Positions 5,094 to 49,950 of a DNA stretch of 54,606 bases are shown one piece after another. Position 1 is the stretch's first letter. Each line of letters begins with the position of its first letter. This DNA comes from Prevotella sp. (GTDB lineage: Bacteria > Bacteroidota > Bacteroidia > Bacteroidales > Bacteroidaceae). The stretch lies in contig JAFPTC010000132.1 in the NCBI GenBank assembly GCA_017400455.1, positions 1-54,606 on the forward strand, given 5' to 3'. The position numbers and the translations under genes are program-made. The notes beneath the pieces were generated by a model. That model worked only from the letters and a program-made list of their open reading frames with translations. It had not been told where the DNA came from and ran no database searches.

Positions 5094-5374
5094 CTTGCAC
5101 CACTTGCACCTGATTATTTCTACACAGAGTTTTCCCTTGCACCACTTGCACCTGTTTTTTCACCACAACGGGTTAAAAAAAAGAAAACTCTGTGCCTCTG
5201 TATCTTTGTGTTGAAATCAGATAAAAATCTGCGGAGGCTTCCCGTGAAAAAATCTCACGTGAGAAATTTTTCTGGGAGGCCTTCCCGTGAAAAAATCTCA
5301 TTGACTTTTTCGCAAGCGGCGTTGCCGGGTGAGGAAAAAAAGGGAAGGAGGTGCTTAGGTGCAAGAGGTGCAAG
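5094..5374. repeat. TTGCACC-bounded composite repeat element, copy 1
   Basis: This lies in the gene-free stretch 5037-5841. Two identical 19-base copies of cttgcaccacttgcacctg (5094-5112 and 5136-5154) face an inverted copy at 5356-5374 (taggtgcaagaggtgcaag). Inside are a CTCTGTGC octamer block (5188-5213) and a CACGTG palindrome block (5231-5330). A second element with the same bracketing lies at 23747-24051. No coding content is credible. Confidence 0.6.
5231..5310. repeat. CACGTG palindrome repeat, copy 1 (43-base period)
   Basis: The palindrome TCTCACGTGAGA at 5253-5264 is followed exactly 43 bases later by a degenerate copy starting TCTCATTGACTT (5296). The flanks read GGAGGCTTCCCGTGAAAAAA. 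The same unit recurs at 14253/14296 and 39454/39497/39540, with a variant near 23957. Confidence 0.7.
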
Positions 5375-8052: not shown

Positions 8053-8694
8053 ATGGATAAGAACAAGCAATTTGTCATCACCATCAACCGCGAAGTGGGC
8101 TCTGGCGGACGAACCGTGGGCCGCAAACTGGCCGAGCGCCTGGGCGTGAAATACTATGACAAGGCCTTGGTGAAGGGCCTTACCCAGAAGTTCGGGCTCA
8201 CCCTTGAAGAGATTGAACGCATCAAGGGACAGAAGAAATCGTGGTGGAACGAGTTCAATATCTACTACAATGCCCGTGTGGGCAGCGCCCGCATGCCCAT
8301 GGAGGCCGAGGTGCAGCTGACCACCGCCTCGATGTTCGAGACCGAGAAGGCCATCCTCCAGGAACTGGCCAAGGAGGAATCGTGCGTGGTGGCCGGACGG
8401 TCGGGCTTCCTGGTGTTTCGCGACTGGCCCAACCACCTGAACGTCTTCATCCAGGCCTCGCAGCAGCACCGCGTGGAGCGCATCATGCGCAAGCAGGGCG
8501 TCAGCGAGCAGCAGGCCCTCGACATCATCGAGAAGATGGACTCCACCCGCGAGACCTACATCCAGAAGTATGACGACACCACCCGTTACGACACCCGTAA
8601 CTACCAGATTGTGCTCTCGATGGACGACATGACCCCCGACGCCGCTGCCGACGTGATCATGGCCTACATCAACGCCATGGGGTCTGAGAAATAG
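8053..8694 (+). CDS. Cytidylate-kinase-like family protein
   Basis: A 213-residue P-loop kinase-like protein. The N-terminal nucleotide loop reads INREVGSGGRTVGRKLAE, the GSGGRTVG form of the cytidylate-kinase-like (AAA_26-type) family rather than the GPAGSGKS of true Cmk. VVAGRSGFLVF and the arginine-rich lid segment QQHRVERIMRKQGVS follow. The phosphate acceptor is not known for this family. It is cytoplasmic with no signal peptide. It heads a same-strand run with a 7-base gap to the binding-protein gene, so it may be co-transcribed with the signalling genes behind it; whether it has a role with them is unknown. Confidence 0.85.
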   Translation: MDKNKQFVITINREVGSGGRTVGRKLAERLGVKYYDKALVKGLTQKFGLTLEEIERIKGQKKSWWNEFNIYYNARVGSARMPMEAEVQLTTASMFETEKAILQELAKEESCVVAGRSGFLVFRDWPNHLNVFIQASQQHRVERIMRKQGVSEQQALDIIEKMDSTRETYIQKYDDTTRYDTRNYQIVLSMDDMTPDAAADVIMAYINAMGSEK

Positions 8695-8701
8695 CAGAAG
8701 A

Positions 8702-9670
8702 ATGAGGAGGAACATGAAAATGTGGACTCTGAGGCTGGCGATGACGCTCATCGCCTGCCACCTGTCGCTGCCCGCGTCGCTGGCCCAGGTGGAGCTGGTG
8801 TTCACGCCCCAGTGGACGGCTCAGGCACAGTTTGCCGGCTTCTATGTGGCGCAGACCAAGGGCTTCTACCAGGAGGTGGGGCTGAAGGTGCACATTGTCC
8901 ATCCGTCGTCCTCGAACCCCTGCATCAACCGCCTGAAGGACGGCAGCAGCCAGATTATCACCCTTCAGCTGCCCGCCGCCATGCACCAAGTGGATCAGGG
9001 CATGCAGCTGGTGAACGTGATGCAGGTGCTGCAGAACAACTCGCAGATGATTGTGTCGCATAAGCCGCTGAAGACCATCCGCGACCTCGATGGCAAGAAG
9101 GTGGGCACGTGGCATGCCGGCTTCAGCGAGCTGGCCTTCGCCGTGGCCCACCAGCAGCAGATAAACATAGAGTGGGTGGAATTTGCGCAGAACGTAAACC
9201 TCTATGTGTCCAAGGCCGTCGACGCCACCATGGCCCAAAGCTACAACGAGTTCTTCCAACTTCAGTTGGCGGGCCAGCGCTTCCAGCCCAGCCAGCTCAT
9301 CTATCTGGCTGACATTGGCTGCAACGTTCCCGAAGACGGCATCTACGTCACGGCCGACTTCTACCGCGTCCACCACGTGGAGGTGGAGCGCTTTGCCGAG
9401 GCTACGCGCCGGGGATGGGAGTGGGCGGCCGAGCATCCCGAGGAGACCCTGGACATTGTGATGGAGATTACGCGCAGAAACGGCGTGAGCACCAACCGTC
9501 CGGCCCAGCGCTGGATGCTGAACCAGATTCTGGAGCTGGCCGAAGACCGCAAGAGCGGCCGCCGTACCTATCGCTTAGAGCCGGAAGCCGTGGCACTGGC
9601 CAATAAGCTGATGCGCCAGAACGGCTACCTGTCGAAAGATATTACTTACGAAATGCTTAGTAAACCATGA
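8702..9670 (+). CDS. THI5/NMT1-like periplasmic binding protein
   Basis: A 322-residue exported substrate-binding protein. The signal peptide runs to about SLPASLAQ (residue 29). The mature N-terminus VELVFTPQWTAQAQFAGFYV, then AQTKGFYQEVGL, is the hallmark of the SsuA/THI5/NMT1 family, and LDGKKVGTWHAGFSE is the usual second-lobe segment. These proteins normally deliver pyrimidine, thiamine-precursor, nitrate or sulfonate ligands to ABC permeases, but no permease or ATPase gene is nearby. Instead its stop overlaps the start of a Cache-SpoIIE signalling protein (ATGA at 9667-9670). A second possible start at 8714 follows AGGAGG with very short spacing. A sensory role is my inference. Confidence 0.85.
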   Translation: MRRNMKMWTLRLAMTLIACHLSLPASLAQVELVFTPQWTAQAQFAGFYVAQTKGFYQEVGLKVHIVHPSSSNPCINRLKDGSSQIITLQLPAAMHQVDQGMQLVNVMQVLQNNSQMIVSHKPLKTIRDLDGKKVGTWHAGFSELAFAVAHQQQINIEWVEFAQNVNLYVSKAVDATMAQSYNEFFQLQLAGQRFQPSQLIYLADIGCNVPEDGIYVTADFYRVHHVEVERFAEATRRGWEWAAEHPEETLDIVMEITRRNGVSTNRPAQRWMLNQILELAEDRKSGRRTYRLEPEAVALANKLMRQNGYLSKDITYEMLSKP

Positions 9671-12075
9671 AGCTTCCCGTTGCCCTGAACCCCTCGCGCT
9701 CGCTGGCGACGAAGATCACCGTTTGGGTCGTAATCACCATTCTGGCCGTCTTCTTAGTCCTTACACTGTTCATCCAGCGCACCACGGCCGAAGGCATCTT
9801 CCTTGAGGCCAACGCCCGCTACATGGGAATGCTGGCCGGCAACAACGAGCGGGTGAACGCCACGCTGAAGTCGGTAGAAGCAGCCATCGGCAACACCGTG
9901 CCGTTGGTGGAGGAAAACCTCGACCGCCCCGACCGCCTCTACGGTCTCGTGGAGCGGGTGGTGGCGCTGAACCCTGACATCGTGGGGTCGGCCATTGCCT
10001 TTGAACCCTACTACTATCCGGAGAAAGGCAAGCAGTTCTCGCCCTATGCCTACCGCATAGGCAACACCGTCGACAGCAAACAACTGGGATCGCCCGACTA
10101 TGAGTACCACTACATGGACTGGTATCAGATTCCCAAGCTTTTAGGCAAACCCTATTGGAGCGAGCCCTATTATGACACCGACGGCGGCAACACGATGATG
10201 ACTACCTACTCGCTGCCCCTGCGCAACAACGATGGCGAGCTTTACGCCATCTTCACCGCCGATGTCGCCTTGGAATGGCTCAGCAGCATGATGGAAGAAA
10301 CCGACAGCATCAACAACAGCGAGGGTGCCCTGGGTCAGGGCCACGCCTATAGCTTCATCATCGGGCGCGGCGGAACCTACATTGCCCATCCCGACCGCGA
10401 GCGCGTGCTGAACGAGACCTATTTCAGCCACGCCATGGAAACCGCCGATACGCTGGATGACTATGCTGGCTACCAGATGATTGCTGGCTGTCGGGGCAAC
10501 GCCCACTTAGACGGCTCCGACACGCTCAGCATCTACTACTCGCCCATCGAGCGTACGGGCTGGTCAATGGCCATCGTCGTACCCGACGCAGAAATCGTGG
10601 CCGGCGCCCGGCGGGCAGGCTATATCATCCTGGGCTTGATGCTGCTGGGCCTGCTTGCCGTCATCCTGGTGTGCCGCTATGCCATTGGGCGCATCACCAA
10701 GCCGCTGACACGCTTTGCCGCCTCGGCCGACGAGATTTCGCTGGGCCATTTCGACACACCACTGCCCGGCGTGAAGACCCACGACGAGATGCGCCACCTG
10801 CACGACTCGTTCCTCACCATGCAACATTCGCTGAACCAGCAGATACAGGAGACGGCACGCGTCACCGAACAGAAGGGCCGCATAGAAAGCGAGCTGCACA
10901 TTGCCCGCAGCATCCAGATGGCCATGCTGCCCAAGACCTTCCCGCCCTATCCCGACCGCGACGAGATATCCATCTACGGCCAGCTGACACCCGCCAAGGA
11001 GGTGGGCGGCGACCTCTACGACTTCTACATACGCGAGGACAAACTCTTCTTCTGCATAGGCGACGTCAGCGGCAAGGGCGTCCCCGCCTCGCTGGTGATG
11101 GCCGTCACCCGGGCCCTGTTCCGCACCATCTCCTCCCACGAGTCGCAGCCCGACCGCATTGTGAGCCTGCTGAACGACACGATAGCCGAGGACAACGAGA
11201 CCTGCATGTTCGTCACCATGTTCGTGGGCGTCATCGACCTGCCCACGGGCTACATGCAGTATTGCAACGCCGGCCACGACGCCCCGCTGCTCATCTCGAA
11301 GGGAGGGCGCCGCATAGGCCTGCTGCCCGTGGACAGCAATCTGCCCGCCGGCGTGATGTATGGCTGGAAGTTCAGCCTCCAGGAAACAAGCATAGACAAC
11401 GGAACGACCATCTTCCTCTATACCGACGGACTGACCGAGGCCGAGGACATCAATCACGGCCAGTTTGGCGAAGACCGCATCTTCGATTCGGCCCGTACCT
11501 GCTGCTTAAGCGGACAGATGACTCCCCGCCGGCTGCTGGAGCAGATGACCGACGACATCCATGCCTTCGTGGGCGAAGCCGAGCAGAGCGACGACCTGAC
11601 GATGATGGCCATCCAGTATGACCTGAAGCGGGATATTCACCACCACCACTCGCTGACGCTGCCCAACGACGTCGAGGCCGTGCCCCAGCTCCACGAGTTC
11701 ATCGAGGAAGTGGCCGAGGCAGCTCAGCTGGACGCCTCGCTCACCATGAGCCTGAACCTGGCCATCGAGGAGGCCGTGGTGAACGTGATGAACTACGCCT
11801 ATCCGCCAGGCACGCAGGGCACCATCAACCTCTTTGCCACCACCGACGACCACTGCCTGACCATGATCATCAGCGACACTGGCACCCCCTTCGACCCCAC
11901 CGCCAAGGAAGAGGTAGACACCACCCTCTCGGCCGAAGACCGGCCCATCGGCGGGCTGGGCATCCACCTGATTCGCCAGATTATGGACACCGTGGAATAT
12001 GAGTATGTAGACGGCAAGAACGTGCTCACGCTGAAGAAGACAATACTTCCCGCCGGGAATGAGAAAACCGAATAA
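9667..12075 (+). CDS. Cache-HAMP-SpoIIE phosphatase-HATPase (RsbU/RsbW-type fusion)
   Basis: An 802-residue inner-membrane signalling protein. TM1 (16-36) and TM2 (318-340) bracket a Cache-like sensor (about 40-310). HAMP follows (341-395), then a SpoIIE/RsbU-type PP2C phosphatase (412-655) with metal-site motifs VGGDLYDFY, GDVSGKG, YTDGLTEAED and SDDLTMM. Last is an RsbW/SpoIIAB-type HATPase (660-792) with NLAIEEAVVNVMNYAYP, SDTGTPFDP and GGLGIHLIR. It therefore carries both the phosphatase and the serine-kinase halves of a partner switch in one chain. The likely substrate, a STAS protein, is encoded 21 bases downstream, and a THI5-like binding protein is translationally coupled upstream. 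Whether both activities operate cannot be told from sequence. Confidence 0.93.
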   Translation: MKLPVALNPSRSLATKITVWVVITILAVFLVLTLFIQRTTAEGIFLEANARYMGMLAGNNERVNATLKSVEAAIGNTVPLVEENLDRPDRLYGLVERVVALNPDIVGSAIAFEPYYYPEKGKQFSPYAYRIGNTVDSKQLGSPDYEYHYMDWYQIPKLLGKPYWSEPYYDTDGGNTMMTTYSLPLRNNDGELYAIFTADVALEWLSSMMEETDSINNSEGALGQGHAYSFIIGRGGTYIAHPDRERVLNETYFSHAMETADTLDDYAGYQMIAGCRGNAHLDGSDTLSIYYSPIERTGWSMAIVVPDAEIVAGARRAGYIILGLMLLGLLAVILVCRYAIGRITKPLTRFAASADEISLGHFDTPLPGVKTHDEMRHLHDSFLTMQHSLNQQIQETARVTEQKGRIESELHIARSIQMAMLPKTFPPYPDRDEISIYGQLTPAKEVGGDLYDFYIREDKLFFCIGDVSGKGVPASLVMAVTRALFRTISSHESQPDRIVSLLNDTIAEDNETCMFVTMFVGVIDLPTGYMQYCNAGHDAPLLISKGGRRIGLLPVDSNLPAGVMYGWKFSLQETSIDNGTTIFLYTDGLTEAEDINHGQFGEDRIFDSARTCCLSGQMTPRRLLEQMTDDIHAFVGEAEQSDDLTMMAIQYDLKRDIHHHHSLTLPNDVEAVPQLHEFIEEVAEAAQLDASLTMSLNLAIEEAVVNVMNYAYPPGTQGTINLFATTDDHCLTMIISDTGTPFDPTAKEEVDTTLSAEDRPIGGLGIHLIRQIMDTVEYEYVDGKNVLTLKKTILPAGNEKTE

Positions 12076-12096
12076 TCAGAAAAACATTAAAACGCT

Positions 12097-12399
12097 ATGT
12101 TTTTTGAAGTAGAAGAAAAAGATGGAGGCATGTACGCCACGGTCAGTGGCCGCCTCGACACCCCGTCAGCCGCTAAGGCCCAGCAGGAGATTACCCCGCT
12201 GCTGGAGAATGCCGACAAGTTCATAACGCTCGACTGCACCAACCTGGAATATATCAGCAGCTCGGGCCTGCGCCTGCTGCTCACCATTCGCAAGGAGGCT
12301 GCCCGCAAGGGTGGAAACGTGGTGGTGGAGCACATCAGCGACGACATCAAGAAGGTGCTTATGATGACCGGCTTCATCAACCTGTTTGAAATAAGATAG
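12097..12399 (+). CDS. STAS-domain anti-sigma-factor-antagonist-like protein
   Basis: A 100-residue stand-alone STAS domain of the SpoIIAA/RsbV type. The phosphorylation loop reads LEYISSSGLRLLL; one of Ser54-56 corresponds to the serine phosphorylated by RsbW-type kinases and dephosphorylated by SpoIIE-type phosphatases. The N-terminal VSGRLDTPSA strand-turn also fits. It lies directly after the phosphatase/kinase fusion and 30 bases before a RelA/SpoT-type synthetase, in the same orientation. In Bacillus such proteins release a sigma factor, but no sigma or anti-sigma gene is visible here, so the downstream target may be something else. Confidence 0.93.
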   Translation: MFFEVEEKDGGMYATVSGRLDTPSAAKAQQEITPLLENADKFITLDCTNLEYISSSGLRLLLTIRKEAARKGGNVVVEHISDDIKKVLMMTGFINLFEIR

Positions 12400-12429
12400 T
12401 ACCAGGCCGCTGCCTGTTGGTGGAAGCCC

Positions 12430-13527
12430 ATGAAGAACTACGGTCTTGACCTGCACGCCGAAATGCTGCTCGACGACTATCGCGAGCAGCTGCCGCTGTT
12501 TCAGCTGCTGCAGCAGGTGGTGGAGGCCAAGCTGCGCGACGCCATAGGGCAGATGGGCATTGAGGTGAACACCGTCGAGACCCGCATCAAGGAAGAGGCG
12601 TCGCTGGCCGGCAAGCTGGCCCGAAAGGGCGACAAGTATGGCTCGCTGGATGACATCACCGACATCTTCGGGGCCCGCATCATCGCCTTCTACAACGAAG
12701 ACGTGGACCGCATCGCCTCGATGGCCGAGTCGCTCTTCGACATTGACTGGGCCAACTCGGCCGACCGCCGCAAGATGCACGAGTTCAACAGCTTCGGCTA
12801 CAACTCGCTCCATTACATCTGCCGCCTGCCGGCCACCGTCTATCACGACCCCGAACATCCCGAGCTGAACCAGATACGCTTCGAGCTGCAGATGCGCACC
12901 GTGCTGCAGCACGTCTGGTCGGCCATCTATCATGACATTGGTTACAAAAGCGCCATTGAGACTCCCGTGGAGTATCGGCGCAGCCTGAGCCGTCTGGCCG
13001 GCATGCTGGAGCTGGCCGACGACGAGTTCAGTCGCATACGTAACGCCATTACCGAGTATCGTCGCCGCACGCAAAGCCTGGTCCAGAGTGCACGCCTGGT
13101 AGAAGTGCCTCTCGACGGCGACACTTTTCATTCCTTCCTCAATCTACATCCTTTCGACAAGCTGAACCAGAAGATAGCCGCCATCACCCAGGCAGAGCTA
13201 TGCGAGGCCGACTTGTCGCGCTATTGCCGCGTGCTGCGCCACCTGGGCTTCAGCACGCTGGGCGATGTGGAGAAAATGATTCGTGAAGAGTCGGACGACG
13301 CCTATCAGCTGGCCCTCTACCAGCTGGGCAGTACCGACATCGACATTCTTGCCGCCACCGTGGGCATACAGAACCTTTGCAGCGTCTATATTCTCAAGCA
13401 TGGAGGCGGCGAGGAAGGCCTCCGTCAGATGTTCGACCTGCTCTACGGGCCCAGCCAGCACAACGGCGTGATGGCGGGCTTCATCATGCAGCAGGCCAGC
13501 CGCCTGGCATTTATGAATCGCGCATAA
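12430..13527 (+). CDS. RelA/SpoT-domain (p)ppGpp synthetase-like protein
   Basis: A 365-residue cytoplasmic protein with a stand-alone nucleotidyltransferase domain of the RelA/SpoT family. Visible in order are the RIKEEASLAGKLARKG substrate segment (52-67), DITDIFGARIIAFY with the metal-binding Asp (75-88), FGYNSLHYI (122-130) and FELQMRTVLQHVWSAIYHDI (151-170). There is no HD hydrolase and no TGS/ACT region, so it resembles a small alarmone synthetase, with an extra helical C-terminal half (about 200-365) I cannot assign. It ends the run begun at 8053 and overlaps by 17 bases the convergent Mesh1-like hydrolase gene. The product (ppGpp, pppGpp or a related nucleotide) is not predictable. 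Confidence 0.88.
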   Translation: MKNYGLDLHAEMLLDDYREQLPLFQLLQQVVEAKLRDAIGQMGIEVNTVETRIKEEASLAGKLARKGDKYGSLDDITDIFGARIIAFYNEDVDRIASMAESLFDIDWANSADRRKMHEFNSFGYNSLHYICRLPATVYHDPEHPELNQIRFELQMRTVLQHVWSAIYHDIGYKSAIETPVEYRRSLSRLAGMLELADDEFSRIRNAITEYRRRTQSLVQSARLVEVPLDGDTFHSFLNLHPFDKLNQKIAAITQAELCEADLSRYCRVLRHLGFSTLGDVEKMIREESDDAYQLALYQLGSTDIDILAATVGIQNLCSVYILKHGGGEEGLRQMFDLLYGPSQHNGVMAGFIMQQASRLAFMNRA

Positions 13528-14128
13528 GCGTTTCCAGCGCGTCCAGCATTTCCTGGGGCAGGGCGTAGCGCCTGTCGCTGCTCTTGGCGTCGATGGCCTC
13601 AAGGAAGTGGGGCATCTCCTCTGCGTACACCTTCTTCATCTGGTTGTTCGTCCCGTCGTCCGTGGAGAACGAGTAGGACGTGTTTGCCAGCCTGTCGGCC
13701 AGCTTCACCATCGGGGCGTAGGGCGTCAGCCTGATGCCCTGGTAGTAATGTTCGCCGGCGCGCTCGGCCCGCGTGCGCCCCTTGTCGTTGGTCAGGGCGT
13801 ACACTATCTCAGCCGCCATGAGCGCCTGGCGGTCGTCCATCCATTGGGTGGCCGTGCGCTTCACGTCGTTGTAGGTCAGGCGCGCATCCTCAATGCTGTC
13901 GTGGAAATAGGCCCCGAAGAGCAGGGGCAGCACGTCCTCCTCGGCCGCGCAAGCCTCGTGGCCATATCGGCTGACGACCTCGGCCACCATGTCGAGGTGG
14001 AAGCCGTAGGGGTGGTTCTTGCCATAGCGCTGGTTCACGCTGTCGTGCAGCTCATGGGCCGCCTGCTTCATCTGTTCTATGGTCTGGGCGTGCCTGTCCA
14101 TGGCCTGCTGGAATTCTTCTCGTGTCAT
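13511..14128 (-). CDS. HD-domain protein, Mesh1/SpoT-like (p)ppGpp hydrolase candidate
   Basis: A 205-residue cytoplasmic HD phosphohydrolase. His44 (YGFHLDMV), the doublet His76-Asp77 in AYFHDSIEDARLTYNDV with Glu80-Asp81, and VKLADRLAN (Asp145, Asn149) match the metal and guanine-site pattern of Mesh1 and the SpoT hydrolase domain. The start at 14128 was chosen because the TACCTTTG promoter (reverse of 14156-14163) overlaps the longer alternative start at 14158. It has its own promoter and converges on the synthetase gene, with the two stops interlocked (overlap 13511-13527). Antagonism to the neighbouring synthetase is inference; other HD nucleotidases remain possible. Confidence 0.85.
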   Translation of the reverse strand: MTREEFQQAMDRHAQTIEQMKQAAHELHDSVNQRYGKNHPYGFHLDMVAEVVSRYGHEACAAEEDVLPLLFGAYFHDSIEDARLTYNDVKRTATQWMDDRQALMAAEIVYALTNDKGRTRAERAGEHYYQGIRLTPYAPMVKLADRLANTSYSFSTDDGTNNQMKKVYAEEMPHFLEAIDAKSSDRRYALPQEMLDALETLMRDS

Positions 14129-14163: not shown

Positions 14164-14228
14164 CAAAATAAGTGGGAGGAAAGAGCAGAAAAGCCTAAGT
14201 TTTTCTAACGCTAAAGGTTGAAACTTTT

Positions 14229-14325
14229 CTGCGGCGCCTCCGCGTGAAAATTTCTCACGTGAGATTTTTTTCTGGGAAGGCCTCCCGTGAAAAAATCTCA
14301 CGTGAGAAATTTTCACGGGGCGCCC
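14229..14325. repeat. CACGTG palindrome repeat, copy 2 (43-base period)
   Basis: TCTCACGTGAGA occurs at 14253-14264 and again at 14296-14307, exactly 43 bases apart, with GGAAGGCCTCCCGTGAAAAA between. It lies between the divergent promoters of the HD gene and yceD. Apart from the two promoters, the rest of 14129-14453 shows no gene. Confidence 0.75.
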
Positions 14326-14425
14326 CCCTGCATTTGTAGGGAGTGAAACCCTGCACACGTCGGGCCTTAGTGTGCAGAAATGAAAAAAAGTAAGAAAAAA
14401 ATATCCGTATTAGAAAAAAAGTTTG

Positions 14426-21765: not shown

Positions 21766-21945
21766 GACTATCATTGGTATCGACAAGATAAAGGTGGGCT
21801 ATGGTCACAAAAGCATGGACGCAGTTATGTTACAAATGTAGATGGGGCTAACCATCTGATTAAGAATCCTACCAAAGCAAACCACAATTATGGCAAAAGA
21901 ATTAATTATAAAGATGGAGGAGTATTATTATGGGTAAGAAAGTAA
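21766..21945 (+). pseudogene. Polymorphic-toxin C-terminal tail remnant, copy 1
   Basis: A 59-residue open stretch without its own start, beginning DYHWYRQDKGGLWSQKHGRS and ending DGGVLLWVRK. The WYRQD, WSQKHG and VTNVDGANHLI pattern resembles the end of polymorphic toxins I recall from Bacteroidetes (WYRQD-WSHKPG-VTNVD), so this looks like the last part of a lost toxin gene fused behind recQ. Its final 73 bases (21874-21946) match 23124-23196 with two mismatches. Codon use is more AT-rich than recQ. A competing 35-codon frame (21734-21841) is less convincing. Confidence 0.6.
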
Positions 21946-21946
21946 T
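21874..21946 (+). repeat. 73-base toxin-tail repeat, copy 1
   Basis: It matches 23124-23196 with two mismatches (positions 22 and 49 of the repeat). The identity stops precisely at AGTAAT, right after the toxin stop codon and the first codons of the following gene. Confidence 0.85.
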
Positions 21947-21990
21947 TTAACTACATCCATTATAATTATTAACAGTAAACTTATCACGAC

Positions 21991-22775: not shown

Positions 22776-23195
22776 ATGAGACATATAATACTGTCATTTG
22801 TCCTACTGTTCCCAGCTTTCTGTCATTCGCGGTCGGCGATAGAAGACTACGACAACTGGGCCGCAATGACGCTGGACTACGGCCCTGACGGCAACCGTTG
22901 GGAAACCTCCGAAGGCTACTTCTTCGGTGACTATGAGGAGCGCTTCACCGGCAATGGAAGCTCGCAGCATACCTCCTACACCTACCTGGACGGCGGCGTA
23001 CTCTGCGTCACCAGCCCCACAGGCGCCCGCCAGTTCTACTACATGCAGCAGGACCATCTGGGCAGCATCTTCGAGATTGTCGATGCCGGGGGCAGTTCGG
23101 TCTTCACGGCCAGCTACGACTCAAAAGCAAACCACAATTATGGCCAAAGAATTAATTATAAAGATGGAGGAATATTATTATGGGTAAGAAAGTAA
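22776..23195 (+). pseudogene. Internally deleted Rhs-type toxin gene with toxin tail
   Basis: A 139-residue frame. A signal peptide (RHIILSFVLLFPAFCHS) is followed by the end of an Rhs/YD core: LDYGPDGNRWETSEG, YTYLDGGVL, then QQDHLGSIFEIVD and FTASYD. In full-length proteins the core would continue with a WG-rich segment and end at GRLYDP and RFLSPDN before the toxin. Here it jumps straight from ASYD to the last 24 residues of a toxin (KANHNYGQRINYKDGG onward). It looks like a deletion product joining core and tail, unlikely to be an active toxin. The immunity-type gene behind overlaps its last 16 bases. Confidence 0.7.
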
Positions 23196-23196
23196 T
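23124..23196 (+). repeat. 73-base toxin-tail repeat, copy 2
   Basis: Second copy of 21874-21946, encoding the same last 23 residues of a toxin. In this copy the embedded ATG (23180) opens a long gene; in copy 1 the same ATG meets a stop after six codons. Confidence 0.85.
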
Positions 23197-23701
23197 ATGT
23201 CTATTTATTTGTTTTTTGGTAATAATGTATTCTTTTGGACAAGATATGTATACGGACAGAATAAAGTGGGAGGAACATGTAGAAACTATTACATGCTCAG
23301 ATTCGAGTGACATTGTTTCAAAAATTCAACAAGAATGTACACATGAGTTGATTTTTCATAAAAAGTTGTTAACCATTGGTGACAAATCTTTTTATTGTGT
23401 CTTTGTTCCCATCGGTTCTGGTATTCCAAGATGGTTAATCTCCGTTTACTTGAAAAAAAAGGATAAATGGAATTTAGTCGCAAGGGGAACCGTAGTAAGA
23501 AATGTATTAGCCCTTACCGCACGAATTAATTCTAATAACGATAAAATTTTGTTTTATACAGATAATTGTATTGTTAGCAAGACGGCTGTAAAAGTGAAAG
23601 AAGAAGTGGAGGAAATTGGAGAGTTGTCGCTTTCTAAAATCATCAGGAAAATCAGATGTGACAATAAAGAAAAGGAATTTTCTGGCAAGAATGAACGGTA
23701 A
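23180..23701 (+). CDS. Putative secreted immunity protein, family not recognised
   Basis: A 173-residue AT-rich gene. It begins inside the toxin tail (ATG at 23180, 16 bases before the end of the upstream frame), the tight overlap typical of toxin-immunity pairs. The N-terminus GKKVICLFICFLVIMYSFGQ is a signal peptide, so the protein should act in the periplasm. The rest shows alternating strands (FYCVFVPIGSG, RWLISVYLKKKDKW, LVARGTVV) and a basic end, with no family I recognise. Immunity is inferred from overlap and position. Confidence 0.65.
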   Translation: MGKKVICLFICFLVIMYSFGQDMYTDRIKWEEHVETITCSDSSDIVSKIQQECTHELIFHKKLLTIGDKSFYCVFVPIGSGIPRWLISVYLKKKDKWNLVARGTVVRNVLALTARINSNNDKILFYTDNCIVSKTAVKVKEEVEEIGELSLSKIIRKIRCDNKEKEFSGKNER

Positions 23702-36758: not shown

Positions 36759-36787
36759 GCGCTCCACATGTGTCGTAACTTTCATAC

Positions 36788-36840
36788 CCTGCCTTGTGTT
36801 CCGCTTTCTCATGAAGTGGAATGCAAGGCAGGACTCTTTT
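36788..36840 (+). terminator. Terminator between OmpA copy 1 and the MBG protein
   Basis: CCTGCCTTG (36788-36796) pairs with CAAGGCAGG (36824-36832), with further inner TTCC/GGAA pairing, followed by ACTCTTTT. It lies upstream of the ATG at 36858 and argues against a start at 36768. Confidence 0.75.
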
Positions 36841-36857
36841 CATCAAACTATTATTCT

Positions 36858-39425
36858 ATGAAGCGATTTCTTTTATCCCTTTTTGCCACGGCGTTGTTCA
36901 TGCCTGCGCTGGCCCAGCTTGGTGCCGACGGCTATTATCGCGTGAAGAACTTCAAGTCACAGCGCTATATCATCATGATCGACAACAAGAGCAAAGGCGT
37001 CGATCCCAACTCTACCACCTACGACCTTGATGCCATGATGACCATCAAGCCGTTCAGCAAGGTGGCCGCCGAGGCTGGCTCCGTGGTCTACATCCAGAAC
37101 TGTGGCGGCAATCAGTACAATCTCATTGCCCAGGGCACCGACGTCCACGCCACCACTGGCCGCTACCTCACCCTCACCACGGGCAGCAGCTCGCAGCACA
37201 CCTATTTCGCCTCTGCTGTCGTTTCAGGTGTAACGGTCTATCTCTTCGACGAGCAGTACATGGGCACCGAAGGCCGTCTCTCCACAGCCAACAATGCCGG
37301 TGCCGGTGGCGATGTCTATCGTCATTGGCTCATCCAGCCCATCTCTGCAACCAGCGATGACAACTATTTCGGCATCAAGGCCGACGTCACCGCCGGTGAC
37401 AAGCATTATGCTGCCGCCTACTATTCCTTCCCCTACAGCTTCGCCTCTTCGGGCATGAAGGCCTATTCCGTCACCAAGCTCGACGGTGAGTATGCCGTCT
37501 GGCAGCCGGTCGACGGTGTGGTGGCCGGAGCGACGCCCGTCATCGTAGAGTGTCCAGGCACCGAGCCATCCGACAACCGACTCAACCTCCTGGCTTCCGG
37601 TGGCGTCAGTCCCGCTGGCAACCTGCTCAAGGGCGTTTATCTGAACAACTCCTGGGTCGATTTCATCAGCGAGACATCCTACCATTTCAATGCCACGCGC
37701 AACGATGCCTCCACCATGCGCCTGCTCGGCGTCACGTCCGAAGGCAAGCTGGGCTTTGTGAAGTCGAGCGAGAAATACATTCCTGAGAACACCGCCTATC
37801 TCACCGTTCCCGCTGGCTCGCCCGACGAGATTACGCTGGTCACCCAGGCCGAGTACGATGCCATCTTGGCAGCCGATGCCGTCACCGTGACGGCTCGCGA
37901 CTGCAGCCGTGAGTATGGCGAGGCCAACCCCACCTTCGAGTATGATGTCGAGGGCACCCTGAAGGGCCAGCCCAGCCTCAGCTGCTCGGCCACGCCGTCG
38001 TCGCCCGTGGGCACCTATCCCATTGTGGTCACTCAGGGCACGGTCACCAACCGCAGCTTCACCGCCCATAACGGCACGCTCACCGTCACCCAGGCCCCCC
38101 TCACCGTCACGGCCCGCAGCTTCACCATCAAGCAGAACGAGCCACTGCCGCAGTTTGTCTGCGACTATGCCGGCTTCAAGCTCGGCGAGACTGCCGCTGT
38201 GCTCTCTGCCAAGCCCCAGCTCGCCTGCGACGTGCCCGCCGACCGTACGCCTGGCACCTATCCCATCACCGTCAGCGGTGCTGAAGCCCAGAACTACAGC
38301 ATCACCCATGTTGCCGGCACGCTCACCATTCTTGAGGCCGATCCCATCACCGTCACCGCCACCAGCCTTTCCAAGGAGTATGGCGACGCCCTGCCCAAGC
38401 TGTCGTGGACGGTCGAGGGTGGTACCCTCACGGGAGAGCCAGTGCTCCAGTGCGAGGCCACCGAGTCGTCGCTGCCCGGTACCTACGCCATTACGCTGAG
38501 CAAGGGCACCATCGACTATCCCAACCTGATCCTCGTCGACGGCACACTCACCGTGACCAAGGCTCCGCTCACCATCTCGACCGGCACTTACACCATGAAG
38601 CAGACCGACGAGCTGCCCACCTTCGAGCCCATCTACGAAGGCTTCAAGCTGGGCGAGACCGAGTCCGTGCTCACCAGCAAGCCCCAGATGAACGTCGTGA
38701 TGCCCACTGAGGGTGCTTATGAGCCCGGTGAATACGAGATTGAGGTCAGCGGTGCTCAGGCCGACAACTACGACATCAGCTACCGTTCCGGCCGCCTCAT
38801 CATCACCGAGGCCGATCAGGTGGTGGTGGTCGCTGCCGATGCCACCATGGTCTATGGCGACCCGCTGCCCCAGTTCACCTATCAGATCAGTAGCGACGAC
38901 GTCGAGGGCCAGCCCGTGGTCAGTTGCGAGGCCACCAGCGCCTCGCCCGTGGGCACCTATCCCATTGTTGTCCAGGCCGGCACCATCAGCTATCCCAACC
39001 TGAAGCTGGTCAACGGCACGCTCACCATCACCAAGGCCCCGCTGAAGGCATCCGTGGCCGACTACTCTCGCGAGCAGGGCCAGGAGAACCCCGTTTTTGA
39101 GGTGCTCTACGAAGGCTTCCGCAATGGTGACGATGCCTCGGTGCTGATTGCCGCTCCCGTGGCCACCACTTCGGCCACCGCTGCCAGCCCCGCCGGCGTC
39201 TATGACATCACCGTTTCGGGTGGCGAGGCTCAGAACTACGCCTTCACCTATGTCGGCGGCAAGCTCACGATCACCGTGCCCAGCGGCATTGCCTCGCTGG
39301 TGCTCTCGGCCCCTGCCGACGTCTACTCGCTCACGGGCCGCAAGCTGCGCTCGCAGGTCACCAGCCTCCAGGGCCTTCCCCGTGGCGTTTATGTGGTCAA
39401 CGGTCGCAAGGTTGTGGTGAAGTAA
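36858..39425 (+). CDS. Secreted MBG-domain repeat protein with sorting-type C-terminus
   Basis: An 855-residue exported protein. The signal peptide is LLSLFATALFMPALAQ. Residues about 20-330 form an unassigned N-terminal region that begins ADGYYRVKNFKSQRYIIM. Residues about 340-810 hold about six MBG-type Ig-like repeats, alternating between the types VTVTARDCSREYGEANPTF and LTVTARSFTIKQNEPLPQF, each closing with NGTLTVT-like strands. The last 30 residues (VYSLTGRKL, then LPRGVYVVNGRKVVVK) resemble the C-terminal sorting signal of Prevotella type IX secretion substrates. The start at 36858 was chosen because a terminator precedes it. The likely role is cell-surface display or adhesion. Confidence 0.87.
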   Translation: MKRFLLSLFATALFMPALAQLGADGYYRVKNFKSQRYIIMIDNKSKGVDPNSTTYDLDAMMTIKPFSKVAAEAGSVVYIQNCGGNQYNLIAQGTDVHATTGRYLTLTTGSSSQHTYFASAVVSGVTVYLFDEQYMGTEGRLSTANNAGAGGDVYRHWLIQPISATSDDNYFGIKADVTAGDKHYAAAYYSFPYSFASSGMKAYSVTKLDGEYAVWQPVDGVVAGATPVIVECPGTEPSDNRLNLLASGGVSPAGNLLKGVYLNNSWVDFISETSYHFNATRNDASTMRLLGVTSEGKLGFVKSSEKYIPENTAYLTVPAGSPDEITLVTQAEYDAILAADAVTVTARDCSREYGEANPTFEYDVEGTLKGQPSLSCSATPSSPVGTYPIVVTQGTVTNRSFTAHNGTLTVTQAPLTVTARSFTIKQNEPLPQFVCDYAGFKLGETAAVLSAKPQLACDVPADRTPGTYPITVSGAEAQNYSITHVAGTLTILEADPITVTATSLSKEYGDALPKLSWTVEGGTLTGEPVLQCEATESSLPGTYAITLSKGTIDYPNLILVDGTLTVTKAPLTISTGTYTMKQTDELPTFEPIYEGFKLGETESVLTSKPQMNVVMPTEGAYEPGEYEIEVSGAQADNYDISYRSGRLIITEADQVVVVAADATMVYGDPLPQFTYQISSDDVEGQPVVSCEATSASPVGTYPIVVQAGTISYPNLKLVNGTLTITKAPLKASVADYSREQGQENPVFEVLYEGFRNGDDASVLIAAPVATTSATAASPAGVYDITVSGGEAQNYAFTYVGGKLTITVPSGIASLVLSAPADVYSLTGRKLRSQVTSLQGLPRGVYVVNGRKVVVK

Positions 39426-39440
39426 TAAAAGGGGGAAACG

Positions 39441-39573
39441 CCCCACGAAAAAATCTCACGTGAGAAATTTTCACGCGGAGCCTCCGCAGAAAAATTTCTC
39501 ACGTGAGATTTTTTTACGGGAGGCCTTCCCAGAAAAATTTCTCACGTGAGATTTTTTCACGCGGAGCCTCCTC
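39441..39573. repeat. CACGTG palindrome repeat, copy 3 (three units, 43-base period)
   Basis: TCTCACGTGAGA occurs at 39454-39465, 39497-39508 and 39540-39551, spaced exactly 43 bases, separated by GGAGCCTCC- and GGAGGCCTTCCC-type flanks. It lies between the convergent stops at 39425 and 39590 and could fold as hairpins with T-tracts, perhaps acting as a two-way terminator. Confidence 0.8.
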
Positions 39574-46047: not shown

Positions 46048-49000
46048 ATGAAAAAAGGATTAATTAGCACACTGCTTTTTGGGGCACTTGTCGTGTCCTC
46101 AACTAGCGTGTTTGTGGCTTGCCAGGACTACGATGACGACATCAATGGCCTGCAGTCGCAAGTGGATGCCCTCAAGGCATCGATTGCTTCAAACCAGGAG
46201 GTGATTAAGAATATCAACGACCTGGTGGCTAAAGGATCCGTTATTACCAGCGTGACCCAAAGCGGTACTGGTGTTACCGTTACCTTGAGTGATGGTAACA
46301 AGTTCGTCATCAACAATGGCGTCGACGGTGTTAACGGTAAGGACGGCAAGGACGGCGTCGATGGTAAGGACGGCGCACCTGGCGTTGACGGTAAGGACGG
46401 CAAGGATGGCGACACATGGACCATCATTGACGGCTACTGGTACAAGAACGGCGTCAACAGCGGCATCAAGGCTACTGGTGCTGATGGTAAGGACGGCCAG
46501 GATGGTAAGGACGGTAAGGACGGCGTTGACGGCAAGGACGGCAAGGACGGGGCTCCCGGCATTGACGGCAAGGACGGCAAGGACGGCGACACCTGGACCA
46601 TCATCGACGGCTACTGGTACAAGAACGGTGTGAACCAGGGCATCAAAGCCACTGGCGAGAACGGTAAGGACGGTAAGGACGGCGTTGACGGCAAGGACGG
46701 CAAGGACGGTAAGGACGGCGTTAACGGCAAGGACGGCAAGGATGCCGATGTCTGGTCGATTGGCGACGACGGTTACTGGTACCTTAATGGCGTGAAGACC
46801 GCTTACAAGGCTGTTGGCCAGGACGGTAAGGACGGCGCTGACGGCAAGGATGGCGTTGACGGCAAGGACGGCGCTGACGGCAAGGACGGCGTTGACGGCA
46901 AGGATGGCGTTGACGGCAAGGATGGCGTTGACGGCAAGGATGGCGTTGACGGCAAGAACGGCGTTGACGGCAAGGACGGCAAGGACGGCGTTGACGGCAA
47001 GGACGGTAAGGACGGCGTTGACGGCAAGGACGGCAAGGACGGTAAGGACGGAGCCAAGGGCGACAAGGGCGATGTGTACATCCCCAACTTCGAGACCGGC
47101 TTCTTCGACATCTATGTATGGAACGAGGAGACCAAGACTTACGTTTACAGCAAGCAGTCTGATGTCAAGATCATCACCGGCGCCGGTATCGACGCTGTTC
47201 TGACTGACACCCAGCTGATTCTCTTCGGTATCGAGGGCGGTGCAGGTCAGGAAGGCAAGGTTACCATCGACCGCTATGCCAAGCTTTCGCAGCTCATCTT
47301 CGAGCCCGACTTCTATTACAATGGTATCGAGGCATTCGAATTCGATTCTTACCTGTATAAGAAGTACACCGTGAAGGCTGTTAATGCTGACAAGGACTAT
47401 AAGGCTACCCCGAACGTGGCTGGTCATTATGATGCTATCTCTGGTGGTGGTTCGCAGATTAAGCTGTCTCCCGATGTGAAGGCTACTTATCACCTGAATC
47501 CCGCTACGGCTCACGTGTTCACCGATGCCAAGAAGTACAACTTCGTTGCTTACAACAAGAGATATACCCGTTCTACCGAGGGTAAGATGTCTGACAAAGT
47601 TTTCACAGTTTCCAATGTTGAACTGAATAAGGACAAGTCGAAGCTGACTGTAACCGCAGCCTATAACGAGGGAACCGGCAACGACGTCATTAAGAGCGTT
47701 GATCCCGATGAGAAGGTGACTGTTCTGGCTCTGCAGTATCATCAGGGTGACTCTATTATCACTTCTGATTATGCAGCAGTTCGTGCCAACATCTATAAGG
47801 ACTTCGTGCTGAATCTCACCAAGAAGGGTAACGATCATCACGCTGAGCACGACTATCACATGTGGGATACCGCCAAGGAGGCCATCGACCATGATCCTGA
47901 TGCCCAGGTGGTTTGGAATGGAACCATCGATCTGAAGACTCTGGTGAACACTCACCGCAAGTATCAGAAGGCCAACGGAACCACTGGCGACTGCGGCAAG
48001 TGGGATGACAATGCTGGCCAGGCTAACAATCCTGTCAATGCAAAGGGCTTTAACTACAATTTTGAGCTCGTTGGTTATACCGACGGTGTGAACGTTACCT
48101 CTCAGTCGGCTCATGCCGCCATCAACGAAGACTTCATCCTGCGTCCTCAGCTGACCAAGGATGGCAAGCAGCAGGCTTATGGCGCTGAGCAGAGCCAGGC
48201 CACTATCGGCCGTATGCCCGTGGTGCGCGTCACGCTGCACTATGGCGACATCACTAAGCTCGACAACATTGTTGCCGTTGGCTATATGAAGCTGGAAATC
48301 GTGAAGGAGACCGTTACTCCCACACCTGATGTGGCTTATGAGCTGCCGCTCACTCCGAATGAGACCGATGCTAAGATCCGTTGCGACGCTGCTCCTTACA
48401 AGTTCACTTGGAAGTGGCATGAGATTGAGGAGCACATCCTTGCTAAGATCATTGAGAATGGTACTGGTATGTCGAAGACTGACTTCGAGGCCAACTACAC
48501 ACTGGATACGCATGGAACTTACGAGGGTAAGCCGCTGGCTTCTCAGTTCGATAAGGCTGTGATTGGTGCTACTGCACGTACAACCGACCTGGGTAAGATC
48601 GTTCAGACTAATGTTGACATCGATGGAACAATGACTGAGGTCTTCGAGTGGACTGTCACTCGTCAGGAGGCTTACAGCTGGTTCAAGACCGGTACTACCA
48701 AGTCTGTCTATATCCGCTATGAAAAGACCGGTACTATCGCAGGCCCGCAGCAGTTCTATGTGAAGTTCACCTGGACTCCGAAGAACCGTTACTTCGATCC
48801 TAACACTAAGTTTGCTGATGGCAGCAAGATTAAGCTCTATTGGTACGGTCAGAATAATGCAACTGCAGGCACCGGTTATAATGACATCCATGGCAACGTG
48901 GAGGTAGTTGGTACCACTGCAGATGCTACTCTCCAGCCCGACCTCTATAACTACATCACTACTCAGAGCTTGCTCGACAAGACTGCAGCTGCTACCGACG

Positions 49001-49950
49001 AGTATGTGTTCGACGTGAAGGCTACTTTGGTTGGCAACAAGCTTAAGGTTGATGATATGGCTTCGCCCTACAACCAGCTGAACAGCTATCTTACTGCTAA
49101 GGTCTACTTCGTCGATGGCGATAACACCGAAGGAAACAACGGTAACGACCAGTTCTATGCAAGTGCTGATGGCAAACACCTCCACAGTGTGAAAGCTTTT
49201 GCCTCTCAGACCACTTATGAAACTGCAGGTGTAAATGCTAACGAAATTGCTCGTATTGATCCTGTGACTGGCATTGTGGAACTTGTTCCCACCAAGATTG
49301 CCAAGGAGAAGCTGAATAAGGTAGCTCATTCTGATCTCATTCAGGGTCTGACTGCACGTGTGAAGGTTAAGGCAACTGCATGTGAGTATGATATTCCTCT
49401 GACCGAGGGTGAGTACTTCGACATCAAGTTCCTCCGTCCTATCTCATTGACCAATGCTAAGGCAGACTTTGAGGATGCAGAAACCAACGGTTCTGTGAAA
49501 GCTATCTCGATGTCATTCATCGACTGGCGTAACCACAGCTTCACCAACGCTGCTCAGACCAAGGGTCACAACTACTGGATGTACTATGGTATCACCAGTA
49601 TAGCTGTCAACACAGCTGACGCTCTGACTGACCTGAATGGCGATGCAATGACCTTTGATGCCAATGGCAATTATGTCAGTGGTGGTAAGAAGCTGAGCTC
49701 CATCACCTCGCAGCTCCAGTTCGAATACATCGCTCCTACTGTGTTCGATACTCGTAACCAGTATGCTAACGATGGTATCCAGATCTTGAAGAACGGTCAG
49801 TATGGTTCGCTGAAGTATTCTAACAATGGTGTGACTGTGGGTCAGTTCCACATGGCATTCCCCGCCGAGATTACCTACGACTGGGGTACCTTGAAGACCT
49901 ATGTTACCTGCACCATTGGTAAGACACAGGCCAATGCTCGTAGACGCTAA
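46048..49950 (+). CDS. Giant surface lipoprotein with collagen-like Gly-x-y repeats
   Basis: A 1300-residue lipoprotein. The lipobox VFVAC gives Cys25, followed by QDYDDD, the acidic surface-export type of signal also seen in the first stalk lipoprotein. After a short coiled coil, residues about 93-345 are Gly-x-y triplets (GKDGVDGKDGKDG) in three blocks separated by a module with DTWTIIDGYWYKNGV, a triple-helix-like stalk. The remaining about 950 residues are beta-rich and unassigned; the C-terminus is basic. A perfect terminator follows. A small lipoprotein and an OmpA-family protein come next, mirroring the first locus. Likely role: an adhesive or spacer fibre on the cell surface. Confidence 0.88.
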   Translation: MKKGLISTLLFGALVVSSTSVFVACQDYDDDINGLQSQVDALKASIASNQEVIKNINDLVAKGSVITSVTQSGTGVTVTLSDGNKFVINNGVDGVNGKDGKDGVDGKDGAPGVDGKDGKDGDTWTIIDGYWYKNGVNSGIKATGADGKDGQDGKDGKDGVDGKDGKDGAPGIDGKDGKDGDTWTIIDGYWYKNGVNQGIKATGENGKDGKDGVDGKDGKDGKDGVNGKDGKDADVWSIGDDGYWYLNGVKTAYKAVGQDGKDGADGKDGVDGKDGADGKDGVDGKDGVDGKDGVDGKDGVDGKNGVDGKDGKDGVDGKDGKDGVDGKDGKDGKDGAKGDKGDVYIPNFETGFFDIYVWNEETKTYVYSKQSDVKIITGAGIDAVLTDTQLILFGIEGGAGQEGKVTIDRYAKLSQLIFEPDFYYNGIEAFEFDSYLYKKYTVKAVNADKDYKATPNVAGHYDAISGGGSQIKLSPDVKATYHLNPATAHVFTDAKKYNFVAYNKRYTRSTEGKMSDKVFTVSNVELNKDKSKLTVTAAYNEGTGNDVIKSVDPDEKVTVLALQYHQGDSIITSDYAAVRANIYKDFVLNLTKKGNDHHAEHDYHMWDTAKEAIDHDPDAQVVWNGTIDLKTLVNTHRKYQKANGTTGDCGKWDDNAGQANNPVNAKGFNYNFELVGYTDGVNVTSQSAHAAINEDFILRPQLTKDGKQQAYGAEQSQATIGRMPVVRVTLHYGDITKLDNIVAVGYMKLEIVKETVTPTPDVAYELPLTPNETDAKIRCDAAPYKFTWKWHEIEEHILAKIIENGTGMSKTDFEANYTLDTHGTYEGKPLASQFDKAVIGATARTTDLGKIVQTNVDIDGTMTEVFEWTVTRQEAYSWFKTGTTKSVYIRYEKTGTIAGPQQFYVKFTWTPKNRYFDPNTKFADGSKIKLYWYGQNNATAGTGYNDIHGNVEVVGTTADATLQPDLYNYITTQSLLDKTAAATDEYVFDVKATLVGNKLKVDDMASPYNQLNSYLTAKVYFVDGDNTEGNNGNDQFYASADGKHLHSVKAFASQTTYETAGVNANEIARIDPVTGIVELVPTKIAKEKLNKVAHSDLIQGLTARVKVKATACEYDIPLTEGEYFDIKFLRPISLTNAKADFEDAETNGSVKAISMSFIDWRNHSFTNAAQTKGHNYWMYYGITSIAVNTADALTDLNGDAMTFDANGNYVSGGKKLSSITSQLQFEYIAPTVFDTRNQYANDGIQILKNGQYGSLKYSNNGVTVGQFHMAFPAEITYDWGTLKTYVTCTIGKTQANARRR
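46820..47062 (+). repeat. 18-base tandem array encoding GVDGKD
   Basis: Tandem copies of GGCGTTGACGGCAAGGAT and one-base variants encode the collagen-like triplets. Near-identity between units at the DNA level suggests recent expansion and possible length variation. Confidence 0.85.

Follow-up and report, generated by a model that had tools for sequence, protein, structure and literature searches.

Diguanylate cyclases can be controlled by STAS or STAS-like proteins, as described for SiaD, HsbD, and BgrR (PMC8457831, PMC7647112). In the SiaABCD system of Pseudomonas aeruginosa, a PP2C-type phosphatase and a kinase set the phosphorylation of a STAS-like protein that directly activates a co-transcribed nucleotide second-messenger synthase (PMC7647112, PMC8457831). 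In HsbA-HsbD of P. aeruginosa and BgrV-BgrR of Sinorhizobium, the activity of a diguanylate cyclase is set by a STAS-domain protein, depending on the phosphorylation state of the latter (PMC8457831). We analyzed a 54,606-nucleotide (nt) stretch of Prevotella sp. DNA (the window; contig C123 of assembly G000, which is 71% complete) that contains genes for a phosphatase-kinase fusion, a STAS protein, and a putative small alarmone synthetase (SAS). Control of stand-alone synthetases, RelP and RelQ among them, is usually ascribed to their expression and to allosteric ligands. With slightly better than even confidence, we read the operon in the window as a partner-switching signaling operon with alarmone synthesis as its output.

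The five plus-strand genes of the operon (Table 1) are separated by 7, -4, 21, and 30 nt. The gene order, overlaps, and domain names given in the initial annotation were confirmed by the list of open reading frames (ORFs) and by Pfam, and the SSSG loop of the STAS protein was intact (residues 54-57). The Cache-SpoIIE-HATPase fusion is predicted from its domains to unite a sensor, a STAS phosphatase, and an RsbW-type kinase in one polypeptide. No ABC permease gene adjoined the NMT1 gene in the window.

SAS relatives were searched regardless of their neighbors in a family sample, an order sample, and the contigs of named genomes. Matches were detected in 14/101 family genomes, with identity reaching ≥50% in 10 (counting the window), and in 8/295 order genomes (the window's own included, one match weak); from at least 557 relatives on named genome contigs, the best 80 were kept. 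The closest named relatives among the matches listed were from Prevotella and other Bacteroidales. The window, 9 family loci, 80 named loci, and 7 order loci made up 97 SAS loci, including L181, a weak SAS without the C-terminal domain. Neighborhoods were annotated with a simple ORF caller and with phmmer, using proteins of the window and its relatives, and a directon was defined as a run of same-strand genes with gaps of ≤200 nt.

At 90% SAS identity, 86 loci remained. Their SAS directons contained STAS in 65, HATPase in 63, SpoIIE in 45, HD_4 in 44, an APH-family kinase in 34, Y_phosphatase3 in 20, and NMT1 in 11 loci, and any partner-switch part in 69. STAS was retained in 27/38 directons at 70% identity; among the 13 loci left at 60%, STAS was found in 8, HD_4 in 9, and any partner-switch part in 9. 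STAS and SAS were immediate neighbors in 45/97 loci, with a spacing of -14 to +45 nt. The Cytidylate_kin2 kinase was an occasional neighbor, also lying beside or near SAS in L053, L134, and L163. There were 41 gene-order signatures among the 97 loci, and the SAS-STAS linkage spanned four families (f1, f81, f42, and f2) among the drawn genomes, with the order shuffled. The gene-neighborhood check across Bacteroidales bore out the linkage implied by the initial annotation, without a fixed gene order.

We compared the proximity of STAS and SAS with chance in 16 genomes carrying a strong SAS. These genomes held 26 free-standing STAS matches (frames <200 amino acids; larger SulP-sized frames were excluded), and the weak-SAS genomes G012, G030, G078, G088, and G148 were left out. 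A free-standing STAS lay within 6 kilobases of SAS in 8 genomes, against 0.12 expected, and in 6/9 genera; P would be about 1e-10 or less with genomes or genera treated as independent, although they are not entirely so. G006 was uninformative because its SAS sits at a contig end; on another contig of this genome, a STAS match and a small HD_4 match lie side by side (G006:C106:10207-11093), possibly one operon split by assembly. In G180, G283, and G343 (100% complete), the only other STAS match lay in a large frame, 554 to 582 amino acids long, so that the SAS neighbor was the sole free-standing STAS; the SAS neighbor was also the sole free-standing STAS in G000 (71%). SpoIIE relatives were present in 10/10 strong SAS carriers and in 24/91 other family genomes (Fisher P 7e-6, relatedness ignored).

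Further away, the linkage was not seen. In 12 distant SAS relatives from other Bacteroidota, STAS, HATPase, SpoIIE, and HD_4 were found near SAS in 0/12, up to four genes on each side. The SAS C-terminal domain was undetected by phmmer in these relatives; it may persist in a diverged form in G666, because G666 aligns with the SAS profile over positions 15-328, which reach into the C-terminal part. A separate SAS subfamily (G012; L056:9837-11554) stands beside STAS and HATPase genes, after a CitMHS/TrkA_C permease. Two relatives of this subfamily had no STAS or HATPase neighbors, one of them being cut by the contig end.

The residues required of a partner switch were conserved. STAS Ser55 was present in 73/73 copies of SAS loci, and residue 56, directly after it, was Ser in 56/73 and Gln in 15/73. 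Ser55 aligned to the first Ser of the SpoIIAA DSSG loop, which we take to be the phospho-acceptor; the same position is Ala in PDB entry 1tid. The N-box E/N and G-box D/G residues of HATPase were invariant in 71/71 copies. At the SpoIIE aspartate positions, all but 0 to 2 aligned copies carried Asp, with 4 to 11 of 54 gapped. Judged by domains and residues, a PP2C phosphatase, an RsbW-type kinase, and a STAS protein with a phosphorylatable Ser are therefore all present. The window STAS exceeded the cut-off of the NCBIfam anti-sigma antagonist superfamily model TIGR00377, and HATPase matched the RsbW and SpoIIAB models with scores under their cut-offs.

In the SAS protein, RelA_SpoT was the sole domain found by Pfam; hydrolase, TGS, and ACT domains were lacking. 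The motif residues R52, K54, S58, K62, D78, G81, R83, Y124, H128, E152, and Q154 were conserved in 95/95 aligned sequences (L052 and L181 excluded). Enzymes of the SAS class make (p)ppGpp, ppApp, or pyrophosphorylated tRNA; the window SAS is expected to make the starvation signal guanosine tetra- or pentaphosphate, (p)ppGpp. It would be an additional enzyme, because assembly G000 also holds a 762-amino-acid Rel-type frame, its second RelA_SpoT match, which also carries HD_4. The C-terminal domain of about 160 amino acids was predicted to be helical (predicted local distance difference test 93.1, predicted template modeling score 0.86); it had no sequence match in PDB, and none of the chains aligned gave a clear fold match. 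This domain may serve as the docking site for STAS.

The operon resembles SiaABCD. The window SpoIIE protein matched the NCBIfam SiaA model (1.8e-17), although its score of 63 bits lies below the cut-off of 700. In contrast to the GGDEF cyclase of SiaABCD, the output here is a RelA_SpoT-type synthetase, and whereas SiaC is a DUF1987 protein with Thr68, the substrate in the window matched Pfam STAS and STAS_2 only and carries a conserved Ser. The kinase is an RsbW-type HATPase_c_2 domain fused to the phosphatase, and the sensor gene can have an NMT1 gene directly 5' of it. Because two SiaABCD features fail, the DUF1987 substrate and the GGDEF output, we classed the operon as a partner-switch variant with SAS output; by analogy, it is likely an alarmone counterpart of SiaABCD. 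HsbA-HsbD and BgrV-BgrR are set apart by using cyclic di-GMP where an alarmone is expected here.

The RsbU-RsbW-RsbV and SpoIIE-SpoIIAB-SpoIIAA systems are built from the same three biochemical parts, and the catalytic residues are conserved. They differ in that the gene linked here encodes an enzyme, and no cognate sigma factor of the sigma-B/F type was found with the module (Sigma70_r3 in 16 carriers; the window assembly is 71% complete). YjbM and YwaC (RelQ and RelP) share the stand-alone RelA_SpoT domain with its catalytic motifs, but the window SAS adds the helical C-terminal domain and the partner-switch neighbors. No STAS-controlled alarmone synthetase was found among the titles listed in searches of open-licence PubMed Central. 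The words ppGpp, diguanylate, and SiaC are absent from the text of PMC8256260, and a passage of a 2011 survey of RelA/SpoT homologues names only Rel and RshB for Bacteroidia.

On the input side, the initial annotation had suggested that the binding protein feeds the Cache sensor. An NMT1 gene stood directly 5' of a Cache-bearing SpoIIE gene in 16/16 cases counted, with gaps of -11 to 49 nt (11 in SAS loci and 5 in SAS-less SpoIIE loci; the ORF caller did not retain an additional NMT1 ORF in L070). From this constant position we infer that the binding protein provides input to the Cache domain.

We give a probability of about one half to the reading that the partner switch directly targets SAS. 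The system would then be a portable "alarmone switch" of Bacteroidales, with STAS docked on a previously unrecognized helical C-terminal domain, with HD_4, APH-type kinase, and tyrosine-phosphatase-family proteins as reshuffled accessories, and with the binding protein and Cache domain as one of several inputs. In the membrane-bound SpoIIE-HATPase protein, the Cache domain would sense a periplasmic ligand that is either presented by the NMT1 protein or competes with it, and the balance between the PP2C phosphatase and the RsbW-type kinase would set the phosphorylation of STAS Ser55. One phospho-form of STAS, by analogy with SiaC the unphosphorylated one, may bind the SAS C-terminal domain and switch synthesis of a (p)ppGpp-type alarmone, probably on.

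If this is true, second-messenger partner switching extends from cyclic di-GMP to alarmones, and an extracellular ligand can act on (p)ppGpp without the involvement of ribosomes or Rel. The alarmone level would be a directly ligand-gated output, reached through a phosphorylation switch with a periplasmic sensor, and an outside cue might set the stress alarm directly in gut and rumen Bacteroidales. The module is compact and recurrent, and it can be tested in vitro using two purified proteins.

Several observations weigh against a direct switch on SAS. Among evenly drawn loci (window and L181 excluded), only 8/15 had a partner-switch part (family 4/9, order 4/6), compared with 64/80 of the best matches, which are biased towards the window and therefore overstate the linkage rate. 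No such part was present in the SAS directon of 24/97 loci, and just 5 of these 24 were cut by the locus end. HD_4 was the only recognized partner of SAS in 13/97 loci, 3 of them cut in this way. The mirror-tree signal favored the SAS C-terminal domain (partial r 0.43 vs 0.18); because HATPase shows the same preference (0.37 vs 0.11), the signal is unspecific. SpoIIE relatives occurred in 34/101 family genomes, 24 of them without a strong SAS, and many SpoIIE-HATPase-STAS modules without SAS adjoin a permease-sized ORF of about 595 amino acids next to STAS (L061-L064, L068-L070, and L073-L076). SAS is thus not the sole associate of these partner switches. The two ORFs of this size that were tested with Pfam (L056 and L089, both loci holding SAS) were CitMHS with TrkA_C, which points to transport as another output, besides SAS, that involves no sigma factor.

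The STAS tree (94 rows and 100 columns, with many of its forks weak) gave a mixed result on output specificity. L089, L100, and L109 hold both outputs, with one HATPase gene and two STAS genes, one per output. Their permease-side STAS grouped together (100/99) within a set of 15 rows (99/91) containing 5 STAS that are permease-linked, 4 that are unlinked, and 3 that are SAS-adjacent. Their SAS-side STAS fell in a set (92/90) that comprised 25 SAS-adjacent rows and one unlinked row. SAS-adjacent STAS were not one clade (8 changes vs a shuffled mean of 31), the SAS loci L116, L117, and L161 use STAS of the 15-row set, and 7/12 permease-linked STAS lay outside it.

These loci bear on a different assignment of roles, in which HATPase does the binding: it would sequester SAS as RsbW does sigma-B, and dephosphorylated STAS would release it. 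HATPase indeed accompanied STAS in 61/65 STAS-bearing SAS directons, and HATP-STAS-SAS was the commonest signature (13/97). However, HATPase lies within the SpoIIE chain in 39/54 SpoIIE genes of SAS loci (38 of these 39 also with Cache), which places it at the membrane sensor, and because one HATPase gene accompanies two STAS genes in L089, L100, and L109, specificity appears to lie in STAS. We consider sequestration by HATPase unlikely.

About as unlikely is a co-expressed starvation or stress island, whose genes would share a promoter and a need while STAS acts elsewhere, on a permease or another protein, and SAS is governed by its own ligands. The SAS-less modules beside a permease-sized ORF and the loci with SAS and HD_4 only speak for such an island. 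Against it, the STAS-SAS linkage persists despite the shuffled order, the SAS neighbor is the only free-standing STAS in the three complete genomes, and the three loci with two STAS genes have one beside each output. Taken together, the data strengthen a direct switch on SAS without proving it, and the earlier interpretation is partly supported.

The initial annotation had assigned a facing "Mesh1-like" HD gene the role of resetting the signal. The interlocked stops were confirmed, since the stop of the HD gene falls within the SAS gene with an overlap of 17 nt. The name is fair but remote: the Pfam HD match was below threshold (0.0015), and the matches to Mesh1-type PDB chains were weak (8.5e-4 to 0.013). 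The resetting role was not sustained. The HD family occurred in 19/101 family genomes and strong SAS in 10, but both were present in only 2 (Fisher P 0.6), G000 and G021, and in G021 they lie on different contigs. Given this unlinked, non-conserved position elsewhere, the HD gene is probably not part of the module.

The recurrent hydrolase of the SAS directons belongs to a different family, HD_4, and carries HDxxED in 55/55. In L054 (8611-10307), HD_4 and SAS are two genes with a 4-nt overlap; in L052 (8224-9912), from a different species of the same genus, they are fused in a 562-amino-acid ORF, which is a re-formed hydrolase-synthetase. In G000 (71% complete), HD_4 was seen solely in the long Rel frame. 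Fibrobacter-labeled records (L112, L119-L121, L123, L124, and L127) hold an HD_4-SAS pair without partner-switch genes, the locus end cutting off L112; this suggests either transfer or contigs that were mis-binned.

The frequency of HD_4, its fusion to SAS in L052, its place as sole partner in some loci, and the patchy distribution of SAS recall a toxSAS-like toxin-antitoxin or anti-phage unit, in which SAS would be a growth-stopping toxin neutralized by the HD hydrolase. SAS also matched the PADLOC candidate PDC-S33 (1.8e-15), but over residues 27-164 only. HD_4 is lacking in the window operon and among the genes listed around SAS of the closest Prevotella relatives (L087-L110), and partner-switch genes accompany SAS in most directons, which makes such a unit very unlikely.

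One Sigma70_r3 gene was found in 14/16 SAS genomes and two in G383 and G200; extracytoplasmic function (ECF) sigma factors were outside this count. ECF sigma factors lack region 3. Neither G383 nor G200 has a STAS gene beside SAS; each has a STAS-HATPase pair away from SAS, and SAS with HD_4 only, possibly a classical sigma partner switch. An ordinary anti-sigma partner switch with its sigma factor elsewhere and SAS as a bystander, which the TIGR00377 score of STAS, the sub-cut-off RsbW and SpoIIAB matches, and the second Sigma70_r3 gene of these two genomes might suggest, is hardly probable given the single region-3 sigma factor of the other carriers. The proposal that the switch is tied to the synthetase, and not to a sigma factor, is therefore supported by genomic linkage and by this count, and a consistently co-occurring anti-sigma/sigma pair was not borne out for region-3 sigma factors.

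Table 1. Coordinates of the operon and the facing gene in the window
Feature	Position	Strand	Evidence or remark
Cytidylate_kin2-family (CMK-like) kinase	8053..8694	+	Pfam Cytidylate_kin2 6.6e-44
NMT1/THI5-like periplasmic binding protein	8702..9670	+	Pfam NMT1 3.9e-37; 4-nt overlap with next gene
Cache(PDC)-HAMP-SpoIIE(PP2C)-HATPase_c_2 fusion	9667..12075	+	PDC/Cache 2.6e-28, HAMP, SpoIIE 2.8e-46, HATPase_c_2 1.7e-27
RsbW-type HATPase domain of the fusion	11659..12039	+	N-box and G-box residues invariant
Single-domain STAS protein	12097..12399	+	Pfam STAS 2.3e-17; Ser55 codon 12259-12261
Small alarmone synthetase (SAS), putative	12430..13527	+	RelA_SpoT 4.1e-16, domain at 12580-12954
SAS C-terminal helical domain	13036..13524	+	Predicted structure; candidate STAS docking domain
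HD-domain small hydrolase (putative), 205 amino acids	13511..14128 from ATG	-	Convergent with SAS gene; remote Mesh1 relative

In close relatives, SAS is directly followed by a LuxR-type regulator (GerE domain; L087:11100-11708, the only one tested), with ORFs of similar size after SAS in further Prevotella loci; it is missing in the window. Elsewhere in the window, four copies of an intergenic repeat of about 108 nt are dispersed (5220-5327, 14220-14327, and 39421-39571); the repeat contains a long inverted repeat. An 80-nt direct repeat with 94% identity (21874-21953 and 23124-23203) lies close to a DUF4304 gene and to two ORFs that have no Pfam match. Two large proteins were also encoded, one of 885 amino acids with six stretches matching MBG_2 (36768-39425) and one of 1300 amino acids with collagen triple-helix repeats (46048-49950).

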